Below, one piece after another: positions 1,724 to 29,073 of a stretch of DNA of 29,073 nt; positions within the stretch are counted from its first letter, which is position 1; each line of letters opens with the position of its first letter. The DNA comes from a virus, in IMG/VR virus record IMGVR_UViG_3300027746_000077, positions 1 to 29,073 of that record; one strand, written 5' to 3'. Under the pieces are notes generated by a model. That model was not told where the DNA came from, made no database searches, and saw only the letters and a list, made by a program, of their open reading frames with translations. The position numbers and the translations under genes are program-made.

Positions 1724-1930
1724 TTATTTATATAGCTCAGTTATCCAATCTTCTATGTTTTCAAAAGATTGACCTTCAATAGTTATGCTTGTGTCAAAAA
1801 AGGTTTCTCCAAAATTTGTAGGGATATGACATTGCGTTTCAGACAGTATTTCAGGAGTTCCCTCTGCTATTGTGTAAGTCATAGGTAAACCGTCTAATTG
1901 AAAAGAGTTGTTGTTTTTAGTTATATTCAT
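1724..1930 (-). CDS. Small hypothetical late protein
   Basis: This 68-residue acidic protein has no family I recognise. Its ATG overlaps the stop of the tail-fibre gene (ATGA), the usual sign of translational coupling, and only 8 bases separate its stop from the next start. It has no cysteine pair or membrane segment and is low in basic residues. Its position directly after the fibre gene would suit a small fibre-assembly or structural accessory protein, but nothing in the sequence proves that. Confidence 0.6.
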   Translation of the reverse strand: MNITKNNNSFQLDGLPMTYTIAEGTPEILSETQCHIPTNFGETFFDTSITIEGQSFENIEDWITELYK

Positions 1931-3672
1931 CGTGAGTAATTTACTGTTACAGAATGCAGTATACCTGATTGATTAATACCTATACATAGGTAAGGAAATC
2001 CTAAAGGGTTATTAAGTGTAGCTACTGTGCTAAAGGTGCGAAGTGATAAGTCATTACTATTATCAAACGGATCTAATGCCATTAAAACATAGCTTGCTAC
2101 TGCGTTCCTCGTTAAAATAAATGTTTTTTCAACACATATACTATCAAGACCTGCTGCGAAATTTACTGGTGTTATATCAAAAAAGCCCATAGCAAGAGCA
2201 CCACTCAAACTTACTGAAGAAGGTGATGCGTAAAATCTAAATCTTGTATTAGACGTACCTTGTGTAGCTTGAAATATAGCACTAGCTTTCATTATATTAC
2301 CCGTAGTACTACTAGCTGTTTGAACTAATGGATAAGGACTACCAAATAAAAAAGTAATTCCAGTTCCTGCAGCTGCTTTATAAGTATTAATAATGGTAGG
2401 AGCTTGATAAACCTCAACTCCACTACGACCTCCTACTACTATATCTCCACTACCAAGCAACGAAGTTGAGTTAATAGTTTTTATATTAGTACCACTTACG
2501 AGTGTAGGTTGAACTGCTACATCCCCGCTACCTAAAAGAGTCGTGCTATTAACTGTCTTAATATTTGTGCCGCTTACAAGAGCTGCCTGCTTATTGTTGA
2601 AAGTGTTAAAGTTAGTTGAAGTCAAATAACCATTAACTGATGTTGTAGCAGCAGCCATACTGATAGCAGGTGTTGCTCCACCTGATGATACAACAGGAGC
2701 AGTTCCTGTTACTGATGTTACACCGCCTGCTACTACTAAATCACCACTACCTAAAACGGAAGATCCGTTGATAGTCTTAATGTTTGTTCCGCTAACAAGT
2801 TCAGCCTGCTTGCCGTTGAACGTAGTCCAATCAGTAGAACTCAAAGCACCTCTATTAGCTGCTGAAGCAGTTGGTAGGTTGAAGGTGTGTGTGCTTGTCG
2901 CAGACGAGATACCGAAGTCTGTTCCTGTTGTTCCCGTTGCGAAGTTCTGTACCTGTGCCGTTAAGCCATTTAACGCAGTCAATCCCGTTGAGAATGTAGT
3001 TATTACTTGACCAAGATGACTGTTCTCAGTATGGAGTTTAATCGTCCTTCCTGAGTTGTTGACGTAGATTCTAACCGCTAATCTATCGGTTAAAGCTAAC
3101 GTCGTTTGTGGTACTGCTATCGCGCTAACGTAAAGGTCAGTTACTGTTCCGTTCGTTATACCTTCAGGAGTAGCCGAGTTAGACGCTATTAAAGACAATG
3201 TCGTTCCGTTCCATTTATACAACTCGATATAAAATGAAGGAGTGCCACCTGAACTTGATGCGCTGAAGTACGTTTCAAAGTTCCAATTTCCTGCTGGTAT
3301 CTCTAACAAGTTTGGAACATTAGCGTCTGTGATGAAAGATTGAATGTAGCCATTCGTTGCAATCGTGAAATCTGTTCCTCCACCTATGATTGGTGTTCTG
3401 TCCATTTCTCTAAAAGCAACACCGCCAAATGTACCTTGTGATACCGAACCATTCAAATAGAATGACAATGATCCACCGCCACCCGTTGACGCAGGAAAGT
3501 TGGCAAGGCTTCCATCACCTCTCACATATTGCGATACTGTTCCTGTTGGATCGTCAAATTTAGCGTCTAATGCGTTTTGCAAGTCGGTCTGACTGGATAG
3601 CGTTCCTGTAATTGAACCCCACGTTATCGAAGCAGCAGCAGGTGTTGCCTTGATATATAAATTGTTTATCAT
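1927..3672 (-). CDS. Tail fibre / receptor-binding-type structural protein with internal repeats
   Basis: The protein has 581 residues and is rich in Ser, Thr, Gly and Asn. Residues 21-60 contain 'LQNALDAKFDDPTGTVSQYV', a fibre-shaft pattern common in Bacteroidetes phages. A Gly-rich linker (64-68) leads to a beta-rich region (70-230). Residues 276-413 hold repeats with 'LSSTDWTTFNGKQ' and three copies of 'LVSGTNIKTxNxxxLLGSGD'. The C-terminal 170 residues are non-repetitive and could be the receptor-binding head. It starts inside the end of the 342-residue tail gene (TGA/ATG overlap). Receptor binding is inferred; no enzymatic motif is visible. Confidence 0.75.
   Translation of the reverse strand: MINNLYIKATPAAASITWGSITGTLSSQTDLQNALDAKFDDPTGTVSQYVRGDGSLANFPASTGGGGSLSFYLNGSVSQGTFGGVAFREMDRTPIIGGGTDFTIATNGYIQSFITDANVPNLLEIPAGNWNFETYFSASSSGGTPSFYIELYKWNGTTLSLIASNSATPEGITNGTVTDLYVSAIAVPQTTLALTDRLAVRIYVNNSGRTIKLHTENSHLGQVITTFSTGLTALNGLTAQVQNFATGTTGTDFGISSATSTHTFNLPTASAANRGALSSTDWTTFNGKQAELVSGTNIKTINGSSVLGSGDLVVAGGVTSVTGTAPVVSSGGATPAISMAAATTSVNGYLTSTNFNTFNNKQAALVSGTNIKTVNSTTLLGSGDVAVQPTLVSGTNIKTINSTSLLGSGDIVVGGRSGVEVYQAPTIINTYKAAAGTGITFLFGSPYPLVQTASSTTGNIMKASAIFQATQGTSNTRFRFYASPSSVSLSGALAMGFFDITPVNFAAGLDSICVEKTFILTRNAVASYVLMALDPFDNSNDLSLRTFSTVATLNNPLGFPYLCIGINQSGILHSVTVNYSR
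2434..2847 (-). repeat. Amino-acid repeats in the fibre gene
   Basis: This region encodes residues 276-413 of the fibre. Two units of about 38 residues pair a 'YL/LS-ST-x-(W/F)-x-TFNxKQ' helix with 'LVSGTNIKT(I/V)N...LGSGD'. A third partial unit carries only the second half. The unit boundaries are conserved at protein level and only partly at DNA level, so the duplication is old. Confidence 0.8.
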
Positions 3673-4697
3673 AATTGTGTAATGTTTAAGTTTACTACTG
3701 ATGCGATTGACGATGTTATTAGAAGATCGTCACCTAAGGCAATCGAAGTTCCAAAAGTATAAGCACTTCCGTTCTTGGTTATTGTTATTGTCGGTGCGTT
3801 CTGTACGTTTGTTACGCTATCAATACTACACGAGTATGGCGCAATAAATATAGCTGATTGATAATCTAAGAAATCTACTGTCCACATAAATGTAAATGAA
3901 GGTTTGTTGTCTAAGTCGTCATAATCGTTTGAGAAACCAACCGCGCTAATGCTTGTAATGTCAGCCTTCAAAAGTATTTCTTCTTCTAATGCGTCAATGG
4001 CTGCTTCGATGTCGATTATCGTTTGACAATCTCCAATAGTTTCGCATGTCAAACCGATGTTGTCAGTAGTCAAATACCAACCGCGTACCCCTGCTCCGTT
4101 CGTTCCATAGTAATAGTTCGGTAAAGGTGCTGCTTCGTCGTTGACAAGACTAACGTTTCCGTTCTCGTCGCGTGTAATACTATCAATGAAGGTCAAGATT
4201 GAACTTGGTCCACCGCTTCCACTTTCAAAAAAGTCGTTCCACTCCGCAGGTATGCTGCACGCGTCCCAATAGTAAGGGACAAGTAAATCTAAACTAATTG
4301 TCCAACCTGTCAGCGTATGTTGAAATTCTTCAAGGAATGGTTCAAGACTTACATTCTGCACGGTAATCAAATCACCAAACAATACACGGTGGTTTGTAAT
4401 CTCAGCAACTAAGTCTTCTGCAATTCGTTGAAGGTCGGAAAGAACTTCGCGCTGGTACTCAGGTTTATCTTCTTTGTCGCGTGGAAGGTCAGCAAGGACA
4501 ATCTGAAAACTAAACGTCTTCATACCTTTCGCGTAAGTAACGTTTGAAGGTACAACGTGCATGAATGGATATTCACCAAACTTCTCTAAGTCAGATACTT
4601 CAATCTGTCCGTGAGAGAATCTTTTAAGAATAAAGTGTCCAGACGCAAATGCGTGGAATCTATCTATGAGCGCGTTGTAGCTTTGTACGTTCGACAT
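3669..4697 (-). CDS. Tail protein with C-terminal module shared with the large tail protein
   Basis: The first 145 residues form a compact domain ('FHAFASGHFILKRFSHGQIEVSDLEKF' region, then 'GWTISLDLLVPYYWD') of a type I associate with Bacteroidetes phage tail proteins; the exact role is unknown. A linker (150-265) contains a short helix 'IEAAIDALEEEILLK' (230-244). Residues 268-342 align without gaps to the last 75 residues of the protein at 26799-29073. The gene starts inside the frameshifted end of the chaperone gene (stop at 4660), which supports coupled translation. Its stop overlaps the fibre start. Position suggests a tail terminator, baseplate or fibre-adaptor role. Confidence 0.65.
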   Translation of the reverse strand: MSNVQSYNALIDRFHAFASGHFILKRFSHGQIEVSDLEKFGEYPFMHVVPSNVTYAKGMKTFSFQIVLADLPRDKEDKPEYQREVLSDLQRIAEDLVAEITNHRVLFGDLITVQNVSLEPFLEEFQHTLTGWTISLDLLVPYYWDACSIPAEWNDFFESGSGGPSSILTFIDSITRDENGNVSLVNDEAAPLPNYYYGTNGAGVRGWYLTTDNIGLTCETIGDCQTIIDIEAAIDALEEEILLKADITSISAVGFSNDYDDLDNKPSFTFMWTVDFLDYQSAIFIAPYSCSIDSVTNVQNAPTITITKNGSAYTFGTSIALGDDLLITSSIASVVNLNITQL

Positions 4698-6403: not shown

Positions 6404-6640
6404 CTACCCCAATTTACTTTTGTAATGGTTAATAAGTTGTTCCATTCTGCTATCATAGTATTTCGAGAACGTCTTGAAGCCGTCGTTGTCTTGTTCGAAT
6501 AGTCTGAATAGAACACCTCTCAATCTTTGTGAGGGCTTCTTTAACGTATCTTCAAGTTCACTCTTTAATGATTCTACTGCGTCTAATTCTTCGCGTTTAA
6601 AGTCCTGTGATAGCTTGAATCTGACTAACAGTATCTTCAC
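6404..6640 (-). pseudogene. Truncated duplicate of the gene at 7358-7711
   Basis: From 'DFKREELDAVESLKSELEDT' to the C-terminus this frame matches residues 50-117 of the 117-residue protein at 7358-7711 closely (REELDAVESLKSELEDTLKK identical). The first 12 residues, from a GTG at 6640, are unrelated and overlap the end of the 38-residue frame at 6597-6713. The N-terminal half of the parent gene is therefore missing. It may be a remnant, or still be expressed from the GTG as a C-terminal-domain protein; the intact frame and conservative substitutions allow the latter. Confidence 0.55.
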
Positions 6641-6713
6641 CAGCAGCCATGAAGTCTACATAAGTTCCGAGCGTTTGGTCGCTGTACTTAGTGCTTATTA
6701 TTTTATCACTCAT
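6597..6713 (-). CDS. 38-aa protein resembling the N-terminus of the tail chaperone (fragment)
   Basis: It starts MSDKIISTKYSDQTLGTYVD and ends '..SQIQAITGL'. It follows the profile of the first 40 residues of the chaperone at 4836-5420 ('IPADYSSISVKQYVDYHSAK..IDKLVSISNLL'): YS, YVD and a spaced Ile/Leu pattern align without gaps. The ATG has a rare Shine-Dalgarno-like GGAGG 6 bases upstream and overlaps the stop of 6706-6957. It stops where similarity to the gene at 7358-7711 begins, so it looks like the truncated start of a lost chaperone-like gene. Confidence 0.4.
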   Translation of the reverse strand: MSDKIISTKYSDQTLGTYVDFMAAGEDTVSQIQAITGL

Positions 6714-6957
6714 CTTGACCTCCGTAAGTTTCGTTGTAGTATTGTTCTGCCTTTTCACTTTGACATGACGCAAACGGTTGACCTGCAATATGAGAATTTA
6801 ATAACTGATCTTTCTCTATTTGCTTGGCTTGGTTATAAAATTCATCTAACATTCCTTGAGTTATTCTAATATCACCAAGACCTAAATGGTAATTATGATT
6901 GTGAGCAAGTTGTCTTAATTCTTCCATAAACCATTCAACCGCAGTTTGTTTACTCAT
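6706..6957 (-). CDS. Small phage protein, paralogue of 13043-13300
   Basis: The 83-residue protein begins 'MSKQTAVEWFMEELRQLAHN', has a central 'FYNQAKQIEKDQ' and ends 'YYNETYGGQDE'. The same three blocks occur in the 85-residue protein at 13043-13300, on the other strand and in the early unit. This Q-T-A-x-(E/D)-W ... QAK-x-(M/I)-EK ... YNETYG layout is common in small proteins of Flavobacterium-type phages; no function is known to me. Its start overlaps the stop of the terminase small subunit. Confidence 0.7.
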   Translation of the reverse strand: MSKQTAVEWFMEELRQLAHNHNYHLGLGDIRITQGMLDEFYNQAKQIEKDQLLNSHIAGQPFASCQSEKAEQYYNETYGGQDE

Positions 6958-7361
6958 ATGTTTGTACCATCAATAGTTATGTTAATGCTCTTTATCTCAG
7001 TGCTCAGCTCTTGCCTTTCGATATACCCTCGTTGCTTGCCCTGAGTCTTAAGGTAGAATATCACTGCTGATGTGTTAGGTGCATCCTTAATCGTTACTAC
7101 CTCACCATCATGAGTTAATGCTTGGCGCTCTGCTCCCTCCATCAGCTTGCGTAACTGCTCCTCTGCAAAGTCTAAAGCTACATTCTTAAGTGAGTCTACT
7201 GCTGCCTTGTATTCAGAATCATCATTCATCCAATCGTAATGAGTCTGCCTATGTATTCCAATATCCTCAGCTGACTTAGTTACGTTGCCTAAGTTCTTTG
7301 TAAGTGCCTCATACATAGCAGCTTTTTTTATGGTAAGACTTTGTAAGTTCTCCTCACTCAT
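6954..7361 (-). CDS. terS: Terminase small subunit
   Basis: The protein has 135 residues. Residues 10-55 form a helix-turn-helix DNA-binding region ('KAAMYEALTKNLGNVTKSAE', then 'IGIHRQTHYDWMNDD'). 'ALDFAEEQLRKLMEG' is an oligomerisation-type helix, and the late block 'AVIFYLKTQGKQRGYIERQE' (98-117) is characteristic of Bacteroidetes-phage terminase small subunits. It would recognise the packaging site and recruit the large subunit encoded at 14748-16058 on the other strand. It overlaps both neighbours by 4 bases. The separation from terL is unusual. Confidence 0.8.
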   Translation of the reverse strand: MSEENLQSLTIKKAAMYEALTKNLGNVTKSAEDIGIHRQTHYDWMNDDSEYKAAVDSLKNVALDFAEEQLRKLMEGAERQALTHDGEVVTIKDAPNTSAVIFYLKTQGKQRGYIERQELSTEIKSINITIDGTNI

Positions 7362-7711
7362 GCTAACTTATTCTTGAAATGTGTTATTAACTGCTCCATC
7401 TTACTATCATAGTATTTAGCAAATGTAGTAAATCCTTCGTTATCAGCCTCATAAACTCTAAACATTATACCTCTTAATCTTTGTGATGGCTTCTTAAGTG
7501 TATCTTCTAACTCTGATTTAAGTGACTCAACAGCATCTAACTCTTCTCTTCTGAAGCTCTCATCTTTAAAAGCAAGATATCCGAACTGATTAGCTATTGT
7601 AAATAGTTCACTTGCTTGATTAGGTGTAAGTTCATTTGTTCCAAACGTCAGTTTAAGTGTTTTGTCCTTTCTTGTTGTTACTGCTTCTAATTGTGCTGGT
7701 ATGATAATCAT
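7358..7711 (-). CDS. Hypothetical protein, parent of the fragment at 6404-6640
   Basis: This 117-residue protein is the first gene after the non-coding gap and overlaps the terminase small subunit start by 4 bases. The N-terminal half ('KTLKLTFGTNELTPNQASEL') looks like a beta-sheet plus helix. The C-terminal half contains 'KKPSQRLRGIMFRVYEADNE' and ends in a basic helix 'DSKMEQLITHFKNKLA'. A similar C-terminal pattern occurs in small Bacteroidetes phage proteins; the function is unknown. A role with the terminase is suggested only by adjacency. Confidence 0.65.
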   Translation of the reverse strand: MIIIPAQLEAVTTRKDKTLKLTFGTNELTPNQASELFTIANQFGYLAFKDESFRREELDAVESLKSELEDTLKKPSQRLRGIMFRVYEADNEGFTTFAKYYDSKMEQLITHFKNKLA

Positions 7712-13042: not shown

Positions 13043-13300
13043 ATGGAAAAGAAACAAACTGCATTAGATTGGTATATTGAACAAAATTTTAATAACATAG
13101 TTCAGCGTGAAACACAACAAATATCACAAAATGAATATGTTATAGCTTATAATAATTTACTTAACCAAGCCAAGCAAATGGAGAAGGAGCAGATGAAAGA
13201 AGCTGCTTTAGATAATGTTACGACCAATGAAAAATTAAGAAAAATATTTGAAATTCAATTTGAAGATTTTTACAACGAAACTTACGGAGGAACAAAATGA
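13043..13300 (+). CDS. Small phage protein, paralogue of 6706-6957
   Basis: The 85-residue protein reads 'MEKKQTALDWYIEQNFNNIV', then 'LLNQAKQMEKEQMKEAA' and a final 'FYNETYGGTK'. It shares the same three blocks with the leftward protein at 6706-6957. The last codons contain GGAGG, positioned 6-7 bases before the next ATG, an unusual Shine-Dalgarno-like site for this phage. The gene is visibly A/T-rich compared with the genes after 13300. Function unknown. Confidence 0.7.
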   Translation: MEKKQTALDWYIEQNFNNIVQRETQQISQNEYVIAYNNLLNQAKQMEKEQMKEAALDNVTTNEKLRKIFEIQFEDFYNETYGGTK

Positions 13301-26599: not shown

Positions 26600-26802
26600 T
26601 ATGAGAGTAGTTTATATAAAATAAATATCCAAATGGCTACGTTTACGGAAATGCGTGTCACTTTCCAAGCGTAGTGCTTCCACATTTCCAACTTACGTTT
26701 GCCGTTAGCAATACGTCCGAACTCGCTTTGACTTTTTATGTTCAACTTAATGAACTCTAAACAAGCGACCATAGCACCTGATTTATTTTCCATGTTTATC
26801 AT
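26599..26802 (-). CDS. Small membrane protein before the tape measure gene
   Basis: The 67-residue protein has a basic first half and one hydrophobic segment at the C-terminus ('NVAIWIFILYKLLS'). Its start overlaps the stop of the large tail protein (ATGA); a second ATG lies 9 bases on. It overlaps the tape measure start by one base. Its place is that of small chaperone/membrane proteins in tail operons; function unknown. Confidence 0.55.
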   Translation of the reverse strand: MINMENKSGAMVACLEFIKLNIKSQSEFGRIANGKRKLEMWKHYAWKVTRISVNVAIWIFILYKLLS

Positions 26803-29073
26803 GCTCGTTCTATTATTGCGTTAACAACAGATGCGGTGTTTGCGGTGAAAACAATAGCACTTCCAATACCTATGTTAGTGCCTAATGTGTAAGGACTGCC
26901 GTCGTCAGTAATTGTTATGACAGGACTATTCTTTACGTTGTCAATTTTGTTGATTATTAAGCTATAAGGTGCGAAAACGGTTACGCTTAAACTGCTCATG
27001 AAGTCAATAGTCCACGTTATTGTGTTGTCGTTTTCACTATCAATCTTCCAGTTGCTTCCGTCACTTACCAAAGTAATTACACTTCCAGTTGTTTTCATTA
27101 CATACGTCACCGCACTTTCAATCTTTTGACCTGTGTATGCGTAAAGCGTTGCGCCATAATCGTCACTTACTAACTTGATACTGATTATCGTGCCGCGTGT
27201 TGTTTGTGCGGACGGAAGGTAAACGTCAATATCTGCTGCTAAGTCAGTAAGTAAAATAGTTCTGTCAAAATTCGTTACGACATAGTCTGTGCTTACTGAC
27301 CTAACTGGTTGACTAATCGCACCGCTGAAGTTAACAGGCGCACCGAATCGTGTTGGTGCTAACGAAGGTACTTGTTGAGTGATGAAGGAACGTGTTCCGT
27401 TGTTTGGCTGTGAGAAACAATCGTTCTTTGCAGAGTTCCAGTTGTAGCCAAAACGAAGACAACAATCTTGCGTTACTACCGCAGGATCTCCGTTCGGTGT
27501 TTCCCAATTTAACGATTGGTCAAGGTTAGCCGATACAGGTACAATATCGCAATCGTTGTTGATGTCGAGAACGCGAATAAGTTTGACCTTCGTCATATCT
27601 TGCTCACCTACCACATAACCGCTAATTTCTAACACTCTCCACCAAGAATCTATTATCCAAATCTTGTCTGAAAATTGAAACGTAAATATGTCGTTAAGCG
27701 TTAAGGCAAACATACCCTCTAAGATGCGTGCTTGTCCGTCGAATAGTTCACGGTAATAGTTTCTCCAATAACGATTGTAAAGGTTGTTGTATGGATTAGC
27801 AACGATTGTGTGAATAGGTACTTCGGGAGCAAAGTTCAAGTCGCTATCTGACACCGTTGCGTTCATTGTCGAGTAGTTGTTTAGACACTTCACAGCCGTT
27901 TGAATTACGTCACCGCTTACCTCATCGTACATATTTACAAAGAAGTCAGCAAAGTAGTAAAGTATGCGCGGTTTCGGTTGTACGAATTGACCTTCTGCGT
28001 TGGTGAAAACAGGAACAACTACGTCCGTGTTTTGTACAGGTGCAGAAGGTGTAGACGCGAATGACAATTCAACCTTTTCTTCGCCAGTTGCGAACTCGTT
28101 AATTACTTCAAAATCTGATTCCGTTACTTCATATCTTCCGTAGATGCGTCCATTGTCTTTGTAGACTGAATTATAATAGTCACCGTCTTCGGTGTATGTA
28201 AAACTAAACTTCGCCTTTTGCAAGTCGGTTGTTGGCGAGTACATGATGTCTTTTGACAAGTCAAGTTTCTGCGACCAATCGAGCGTGTTACCGCTTGCGA
28301 TATACTCAACCATTGGTTCTATTCGAAGCGTGTTTGGTAGCGTCTTGTCGGCAACGAAGACAAGGTTGAACATCTTTTGAATCGACGTCATGAAATCAAT
28401 TTGCTTCATATCTGGAGCGTTGAATTCCATTAAACAAGTATCTCCCGTCAATGATGTTCCAACGCTTACAAGTTCAACTCCTGTTCCTGTGTAATCATTT
28501 GCTCCGTTACCTACAAATTCAATATCAAATGTTGAAGTGTTATAAACTCCACTAACACCTTCGATTTTTATTTTCAAAGTATCTCCTGCGTTTAACAAAA
28601 GAGTGACTGTATTGTCTTTTAAAAAAGTGTGTGAATATAAATTTGAATTGTCTACAAAATTGCTAAATGTAGAATCTATAAATACATCGTTGACGTAATA
28701 GAAATAACTCAAAATTAAATCAGTTACATAGTTGCTTCCTGAAGAAGTTGCCGTTCCATTTGCCCAAATTCGAAAAGTAAATTGACCGCTAAAAGGCGCT
28801 GTATAAATTCCACCGCTCCAATCATTTTCAGCGTCTTCATATTCGGTTAATGGCAAGTATAGATTTTTAATGTTATTTGTTGGTGTAAATGTAAACGTTT
28901 GATTTGTTGCGTAAGCTAACGTACTCGCAACGTCATTTAAGCCCAAAGCACTATTCAAATACTGACCATTCACAAAAGGAACGTAAATATGGTCTAAGAT
29001 TGTTGAAAGATAATCACTTGTATATTGAATACCTGCATCGTTCATTATTTGATTAAACAAATAGTCAGCGCGT
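26799..29073 (-). CDS. Large tail (baseplate/host-contact) protein, 5' end missing
   Basis: The frame is open to the right edge (RADYLFNQIMNDAG at 29072 downward), so no start is visible; at least 757 residues. 'DYLFNQIMNDAG' and 'IYVPFVNGQYL' are known to me from the middle of roughly 1000-residue Bacteroidetes phage tail proteins, so about 200 residues may be missing. Residues equivalent to 27300-27700 include aromatic-rich 'YNRYWRNYYRELFDG'. The last 75 residues (26802-27026) match the C-terminus of the protein at 3669-4697. Likely at the tail tip; the role is inferred. Confidence 0.7.
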   Translation of the reverse strand, partial: RADYLFNQIMNDAGIQYTSDYLSTILDHIYVPFVNGQYLNSALGLNDVASTLAYATNQTFTFTPTNNIKNLYLPLTEYEDAENDWSGGIYTAPFSGQFTFRIWANGTATSSGSNYVTDLILSYFYYVNDVFIDSTFSNFVDNSNLYSHTFLKDNTVTLLLNAGDTLKIKIEGVSGVYNTSTFDIEFVGNGANDYTGTGVELVSVGTSLTGDTCLMEFNAPDMKQIDFMTSIQKMFNLVFVADKTLPNTLRIEPMVEYIASGNTLDWSQKLDLSKDIMYSPTTDLQKAKFSFTYTEDGDYYNSVYKDNGRIYGRYEVTESDFEVINEFATGEEKVELSFASTPSAPVQNTDVVVPVFTNAEGQFVQPKPRILYYFADFFVNMYDEVSGDVIQTAVKCLNNYSTMNATVSDSDLNFAPEVPIHTIVANPYNNLYNRYWRNYYRELFDGQARILEGMFALTLNDIFTFQFSDKIWIIDSWWRVLEISGYVVGEQDMTKVKLIRVLDINNDCDIVPVSANLDQSLNWETPNGDPAVVTQDCCLRFGYNWNSAKNDCFSQPNNGTRSFITQQVPSLAPTRFGAPVNFSGAISQPVRSVSTDYVVTNFDRTILLTDLAADIDVYLPSAQTTRGTIISIKLVSDDYGATLYAYTGQKIESAVTYVMKTTGSVITLVSDGSNWKIDSENDNTITWTIDFMSSLSVTVFAPYSLIINKIDNVKNSPVITITDDGSPYTLGTNIGIGSAIVFTANTASVVNAIIERA

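Follow-up and report, generated by a model that had tools for sequence, protein, structure and literature searches.

What is the role of a small domain that ends two otherwise unrelated tail proteins of a single phage? This question is raised by a 29,073-base virus record (G000; the whole stretch of DNA analysed here, hereafter the window) that encodes a portal protein and, by inspection, terminase, capsid, lysozyme and tape-measure-like genes. Two of its minus-strand genes, which we call A (3669-4697) and B (26799-29073), share a C-terminal module. We read this module as a jelly-roll-like, exchangeable adhesion knob that would be carried both by A, a probable terminator-fibre fusion at the neck, and by B at the tail tip, and we put the probability of this reading at roughly 0.57.

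The initial annotation had aligned the C-terminal 75 residues of A (3672-3896) without gaps to those of B, and we find both its coordinates and its count of identical positions (34/75) to be exact. The BLOSUM62 local score between the two modules is 181, compared with a maximum of 58 among 2000 shuffled pairs, and a search with A's module as query recovers the B copy in the same genome (E = 4.5e-19). Whole-protein BLASTP aligns residues 262-336 of A with residues 673-747 of B (70.1 bits, E = 3e-17) and returns no further significant match, in agreement with the claim that the remainder of the two proteins is unrelated. The homologous unit comprises some 72-73 residues, with copy 1 (3672-3890, minus strand) forming the C-terminal tip of A and copy 2 (26802-27020, minus strand) that of B, each as 73 residues up to the stop. 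At the DNA level the copies are merely 52% identical over 240 bases, which indicates that they are old and do not stem from a recent duplication. Rough dN/dS estimates, for which dS is near 1, are ~0.08 for both module copies vs. 0.21 for the core of B and 0.11 for the terminator.

Across viral contigs, searches returned 4 loci with A's module as query, 12 with B's module and 49 with a profile of both, in partly overlapping sets; the module is present in ~45 viral contigs besides the window. Two scans of prokaryote genome contigs yielded no copy, nor did annotated phages, with the sole exception of a weak match to SH1 VP9; neither Pfam nor NCBIfam yielded a match to it, and curated carbohydrate-binding (CBM) models from these two collections matched neither A nor B. 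In 33 of 33 distinct intact copies, 0 or 1 residues separate the module from the stop, and the carriers are of at least three kinds: A-type proteins, B-type proteins and separate fibre genes whose bodies differ. Contig L006 carries the module twice, in one case on a protein of 218 aa. The initial annotation's view of a terminal domain on unrelated tail proteins is supported, and the domain is a discrete one, while its description as mobile stands only in part: C-termini have acquired and shed the module and relatives bear other tips, but a tree of the 33 copies groups them by carrier type, with two between-carrier moves being enough, which argues for an old paralogue pair and not for a fast-jumping unit. 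In sum, the module defines a tip family that lacks annotation, has a clear boundary, occurs on at least three types of carrier and has a fold predicted with high confidence.

The window and contig L003 each hold two module copies per genome. Other contigs combine the carriers differently, with the module on B but not on A (L017), on B alongside a short A (L029), or on a separate fibre but not on B (five loci), and we rejected obligate pairing of modules because such contigs exist.

Predicted alone (AF2, 11 sequences), the module forms a compact all-beta domain with a pLDDT of 95.8, bearing out the beta-rich character proposed earlier. Its structural matches in the PDB are beta sandwiches of many functions whose scores are tightly grouped between Z 5 and 7 (best Z 7.1), including nucleoplasmin, the CENP-C cupin, a collagen-binding domain, CBM6 and the orbivirus VP7 top domain; the CBM6 and collagen-binding domains score Z 5 to 6.7 and are interspersed with numerous other sandwiches. 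As these matches are weak and mixed in function, we name no function for the module from its fold. Solved structures contained no significant sequence match. In a viral structure library only one match is strong, to a protein of an uncultured phage at 88% identity; the weaker matches are largely phage proteins, several of them named tail fibre or collagen repeat, together with Mtd_N-type proteins. A separate comparison of a carrier, the L020 fibre, with the N-terminal Mtd_N domain gave E = 2.1e-5 at 24.8 bits, below the cut-off of 26.3. Among PHROG families, the module matched phrog_16614 (VP9 of SH1 and HCIV-1) at E values of 1.7e-4 to 3.5e-4, in 2 of 17 members, and hhalign of the module profile against VP9 gave a probability of 10%. 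Since VP9 of SH1 relatives is a penton protein with a single jelly-roll beta-barrel (PMC6414509), this weak match agrees with a jelly-roll module.

Where the module would sit on the particle depends on its carriers, and the initial annotation missed that A has a predicted terminator fold, which changes the expected site. The N-terminal ~148 residues of A (4254-4697, minus strand) are assigned a tail-terminator (gpU-like) fold by AF2, Foldseek and VIA-align. Modelled from 16 homologues, the first 157 residues reach a pLDDT of 74.7; Foldseek gives a best E of 3.1e-5 with top rows that are almost all tail terminators or neck proteins, the best PDB matches being lambda gpU, T5 p142, Mu, P74-26 and other tail terminators; and VIA-align superposes 128 residues on a terminator at an rmsd of 2.9 Å (Z 12.4). 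A stand-alone 139-aa homologue of this domain is gp41 of phage P12024S (E = 1.5e-8), and 109 loci have one terminator ORF each. Between the terminator domain and the module lies a linker (3891-4253, minus strand) with a heptad-like stretch, IIDIEAAIDALEEEILLKAD, by inspection a probable coiled coil, and a fibre motif, GFSNDYDDLDNKP. Linker matches to PF22756 (E = 0.07) and phrog_4414 (E = 0.21) were judged to be chance. The T5 protein p143, which had been expected in the neck, was found at the tail tip and not at the capsid-tail interface (PMC11784142), so that the place of a gene in the genome says little about where its product sits in the virion; the neck site suggested for A comes from its terminator fold and not from gene order.

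Loci fetched with the module carry it by construction, which makes frequencies among them meaningless, and our frequencies for A come mainly from a separate search with the terminator domain, which returned 80 loci. The 62 distinct long A proteins have total lengths of 345 to 1273 aa and at least six kinds of tip, and among the 51 of them comparable over the first 150 residues the mean identity there is 93%, a combination of conserved terminator anchor and variable outer end that would be in keeping with receptor-binding fibres. Our module is present on only 3 of the 62. The commonest alternative tip, of type GFLPPRMTTTQKNAIASPAAGLVVYDTTLGKLCVRGASAWETITS, occurs on 24 of the 62 (L064, L067, L089 and others).

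More distantly related phages encode the terminator as a separate ORF of 151 to 222 codons. A module-tipped fibre ORF comes after this short terminator in 23 of 24 loci (all fetched with the module), and does so directly in all cases except one. The long A protein of L003 is 68% identical to separate fibre genes over 388 aa overall, with shafts 72-88% identical but modules merely 48-58% identical, from which it appears that shaft and tip are exchanged separately. Extra shaft residues lie between linker and module in L003 and L004; those in L003 number ~290 and are absent from A of the window, and the BLASTP alignment of the two proteins is interrupted between L003 residues 278 and 562. Given the short separate terminator followed by a module-tipped fibre in other phages, A is best read, from sequences and models, as a terminator-fibre fusion with a separately exchanged shaft and tip, which may have arisen when the terminator gene was joined to the fibre gene lying immediately behind it in these relatives. 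We found no description of such a fusion in the literature searched.

Adjoining A is a gene for a 581-aa fibre (1927-3672, minus strand) that ends in a different, longer C-terminal tip and lacks the module. Over 271 aa its body shares 79% identity with that of an L005 fibre which does end in the module, and this pairing of the same body with another tip suggests tip exchange at this gene as well.

B (minus strand) is truncated at its 5' end by the contig end at 29073; the intact homologue in L003 has 961 aa. The domain just before the module (27021-27281, minus strand; YLPSA..LVSDGSNW) is the last domain in most homologues. The module is present in 10 of the 52 distinct B homologues whose 3' ends are intact, and the other 42 stop just before it or end otherwise, so that on B it is a clean terminal add-on; in L005, B has a different C-terminal domain instead. 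The N-terminus of the intact L003 homologue matches gp45 of Nonlabens phage P12024S (E = 3e-5), and the P12024S protein is annotated with a carbohydrate-binding-associated BACON domain. B is probably a tail-tip or adhesion protein, its placement at the tail tip being suggested by the tape-measure-like gene that adjoins it.

With gp45 as a B-type relative from a phage of a Flavobacteriia host, the window phage plausibly infects the same host class; a 12 kb stretch of the window had no match in the annotated phage set. Genes are cut at both contig ends (1-1172 and 26799-29073). Joining the ends yields an in-frame ORF of 1148 aa, which we regard as an artefact since L003 has two separate genes there, with versions longer by ~20 and ~200 codons. 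The contig probably represents an almost complete genome that is circularly permuted and ~0.7 kb short. Elsewhere in the window, minus-strand ORFs at 6404-6640 and 7358-7711 share a near-identical C-terminal part of ~65 residues (REELDAVESLKSELEDTLKKPSQRLRG...), a within-genome duplication, and ORFs at 6706-6957 and 13043-13300, on opposite strands, have similar ends (YNETYGG) and starts (ALDWYIEQ / AVEWFMEE) and are possibly paralogues.

Beyond what was observed or computed (the homology, the fold prediction, the strict C-terminal position, the alternative tips, and the split vs. fused genes), we infer a virion site, a trimeric state and host-surface binding for the module. It would cap the outer end of fibre-like tail proteins as a host-surface-binding knob. 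A would then form a short fibre that springs from the tail terminator near the neck, made of a terminator fold, a linker with a probable coiled coil, and the knob, and B, a large tail protein, would carry a second knob at the tail tip. The features that lead us to this reading are the conserved anchor, the variable shaft, the swapped tips, the strict C-terminal position and the dispensability of the module on B, whose absence from most B homologues is as expected of an accessory binder. The BACON domain annotated on the P12024S relative of B and the binding modules known from 936 phages speak for it as well. Counted against it are the unusual conservation of the module, host-range tips being often variable, and its lack of a Pfam or NCBIfam match, its weak and mixed PDB matches and its absence from annotated phages.

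The same conservation suits the main rival, a foldon-like C-terminal cap that trimerises, registers the fibre chains and protects their end with no ligand of its own; strong purifying selection, small size, a high-confidence prediction, and a place that is always last, preceded by shaft repeats and a likely coiled coil, are all in its favour. Close homologues of B, however, end one domain earlier with no replacement, so that B evidently folds without the module, and most A fibres have other tips, which leaves the cap a rather unlikely explanation. Two copies per genome in the window and L003, and a fibre gene directly adjoining A, could also be explained if the module were a docking plug through which A and B offer the same attachment site to one common phage partner, such as the neighbouring fibre. 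The unpaired copies in other contigs weaken this idea, and no common partner gene was identified; we hold it to be distinctly improbable. Two copies in one genome might, finally, be a trivial leftover of recent duplication or gene conversion with no function, but the low DNA identity and the purifying selection on both copies contradict this, and across contigs the copies on A-type carriers group apart from those on B-type carriers, so that we give this explanation almost no weight.

The adhesion knob, which we prefer over these alternatives, invites a broader proposal that we offer only tentatively, as possible but short of probable: in a widespread aquatic, probably Flavobacteriia-infecting clade, a host-range fibre would be rooted in the neck terminator as part of a single polypeptide, and some members would grip the cell at both tail ends via the same knob. 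Judged from sequences and predicted structures, the module may be a new tip family among modular adhesion domains, with an unusual carrier in the putative tail-terminator-fibre fusion, and the tail terminator becomes a candidate new anchor for phage fibres. If this is true, the neck would be the seat of host range in a common group of uncultured aquatic phages, and the tips that nature has swapped onto an anchor of 93% constancy could be used directly to relate tip type to host.

Among known systems, VP9 of SH1 and HCIV-1, a single jelly-roll beta-barrel, gives the module a weak sequence match, and nothing beyond a shared common fold can be claimed; SH1 is a tailless archaeal virus, and hhalign lends no support to homology. 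Tail terminators (lambda gpU, T5 p142, Mu, P74-26 and the pyocin R2 collar) share the fold of A's ~140 N-terminal residues, which likewise occur as one such ORF per locus, but in the A group a fibre of ~200 to 1100 residues follows in the same polypeptide; larger terminators with extra domains, e.g., for the sheath, are mentioned in a paper on T5 (PMC11784142). Trimeric fibres with interchangeable tips, and the mosaicism of receptor-binding and neck-passage proteins (PMC10684548), show the same arrangement of conserved N-terminal anchor with variable shaft and tip, and a tip common to otherwise unrelated proteins, although our tip family has no Pfam or NCBIfam entry. The nearest precedent comes from the 936 lactococcal siphophages, whose neck, tail and Dit proteins bear carbohydrate-binding modules as 'decorations'; host binding was observed for one such module of the tail and for one of the neck, and the NPS fibres terminate in trimeric binding modules (PMC6669499). 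At the neck of these phages the carrier is a neck passage protein, distinct from the tail terminator, and host binding has been shown for their BppA-like and other modules, to which ours has no such sequence match. Like the phages described here, however, they place accessory modules on several virion proteins at the neck and tail tip (NPS, MTP-TpeX, evolved Dit), and these modules are present or absent between close relatives (PMC6669499).
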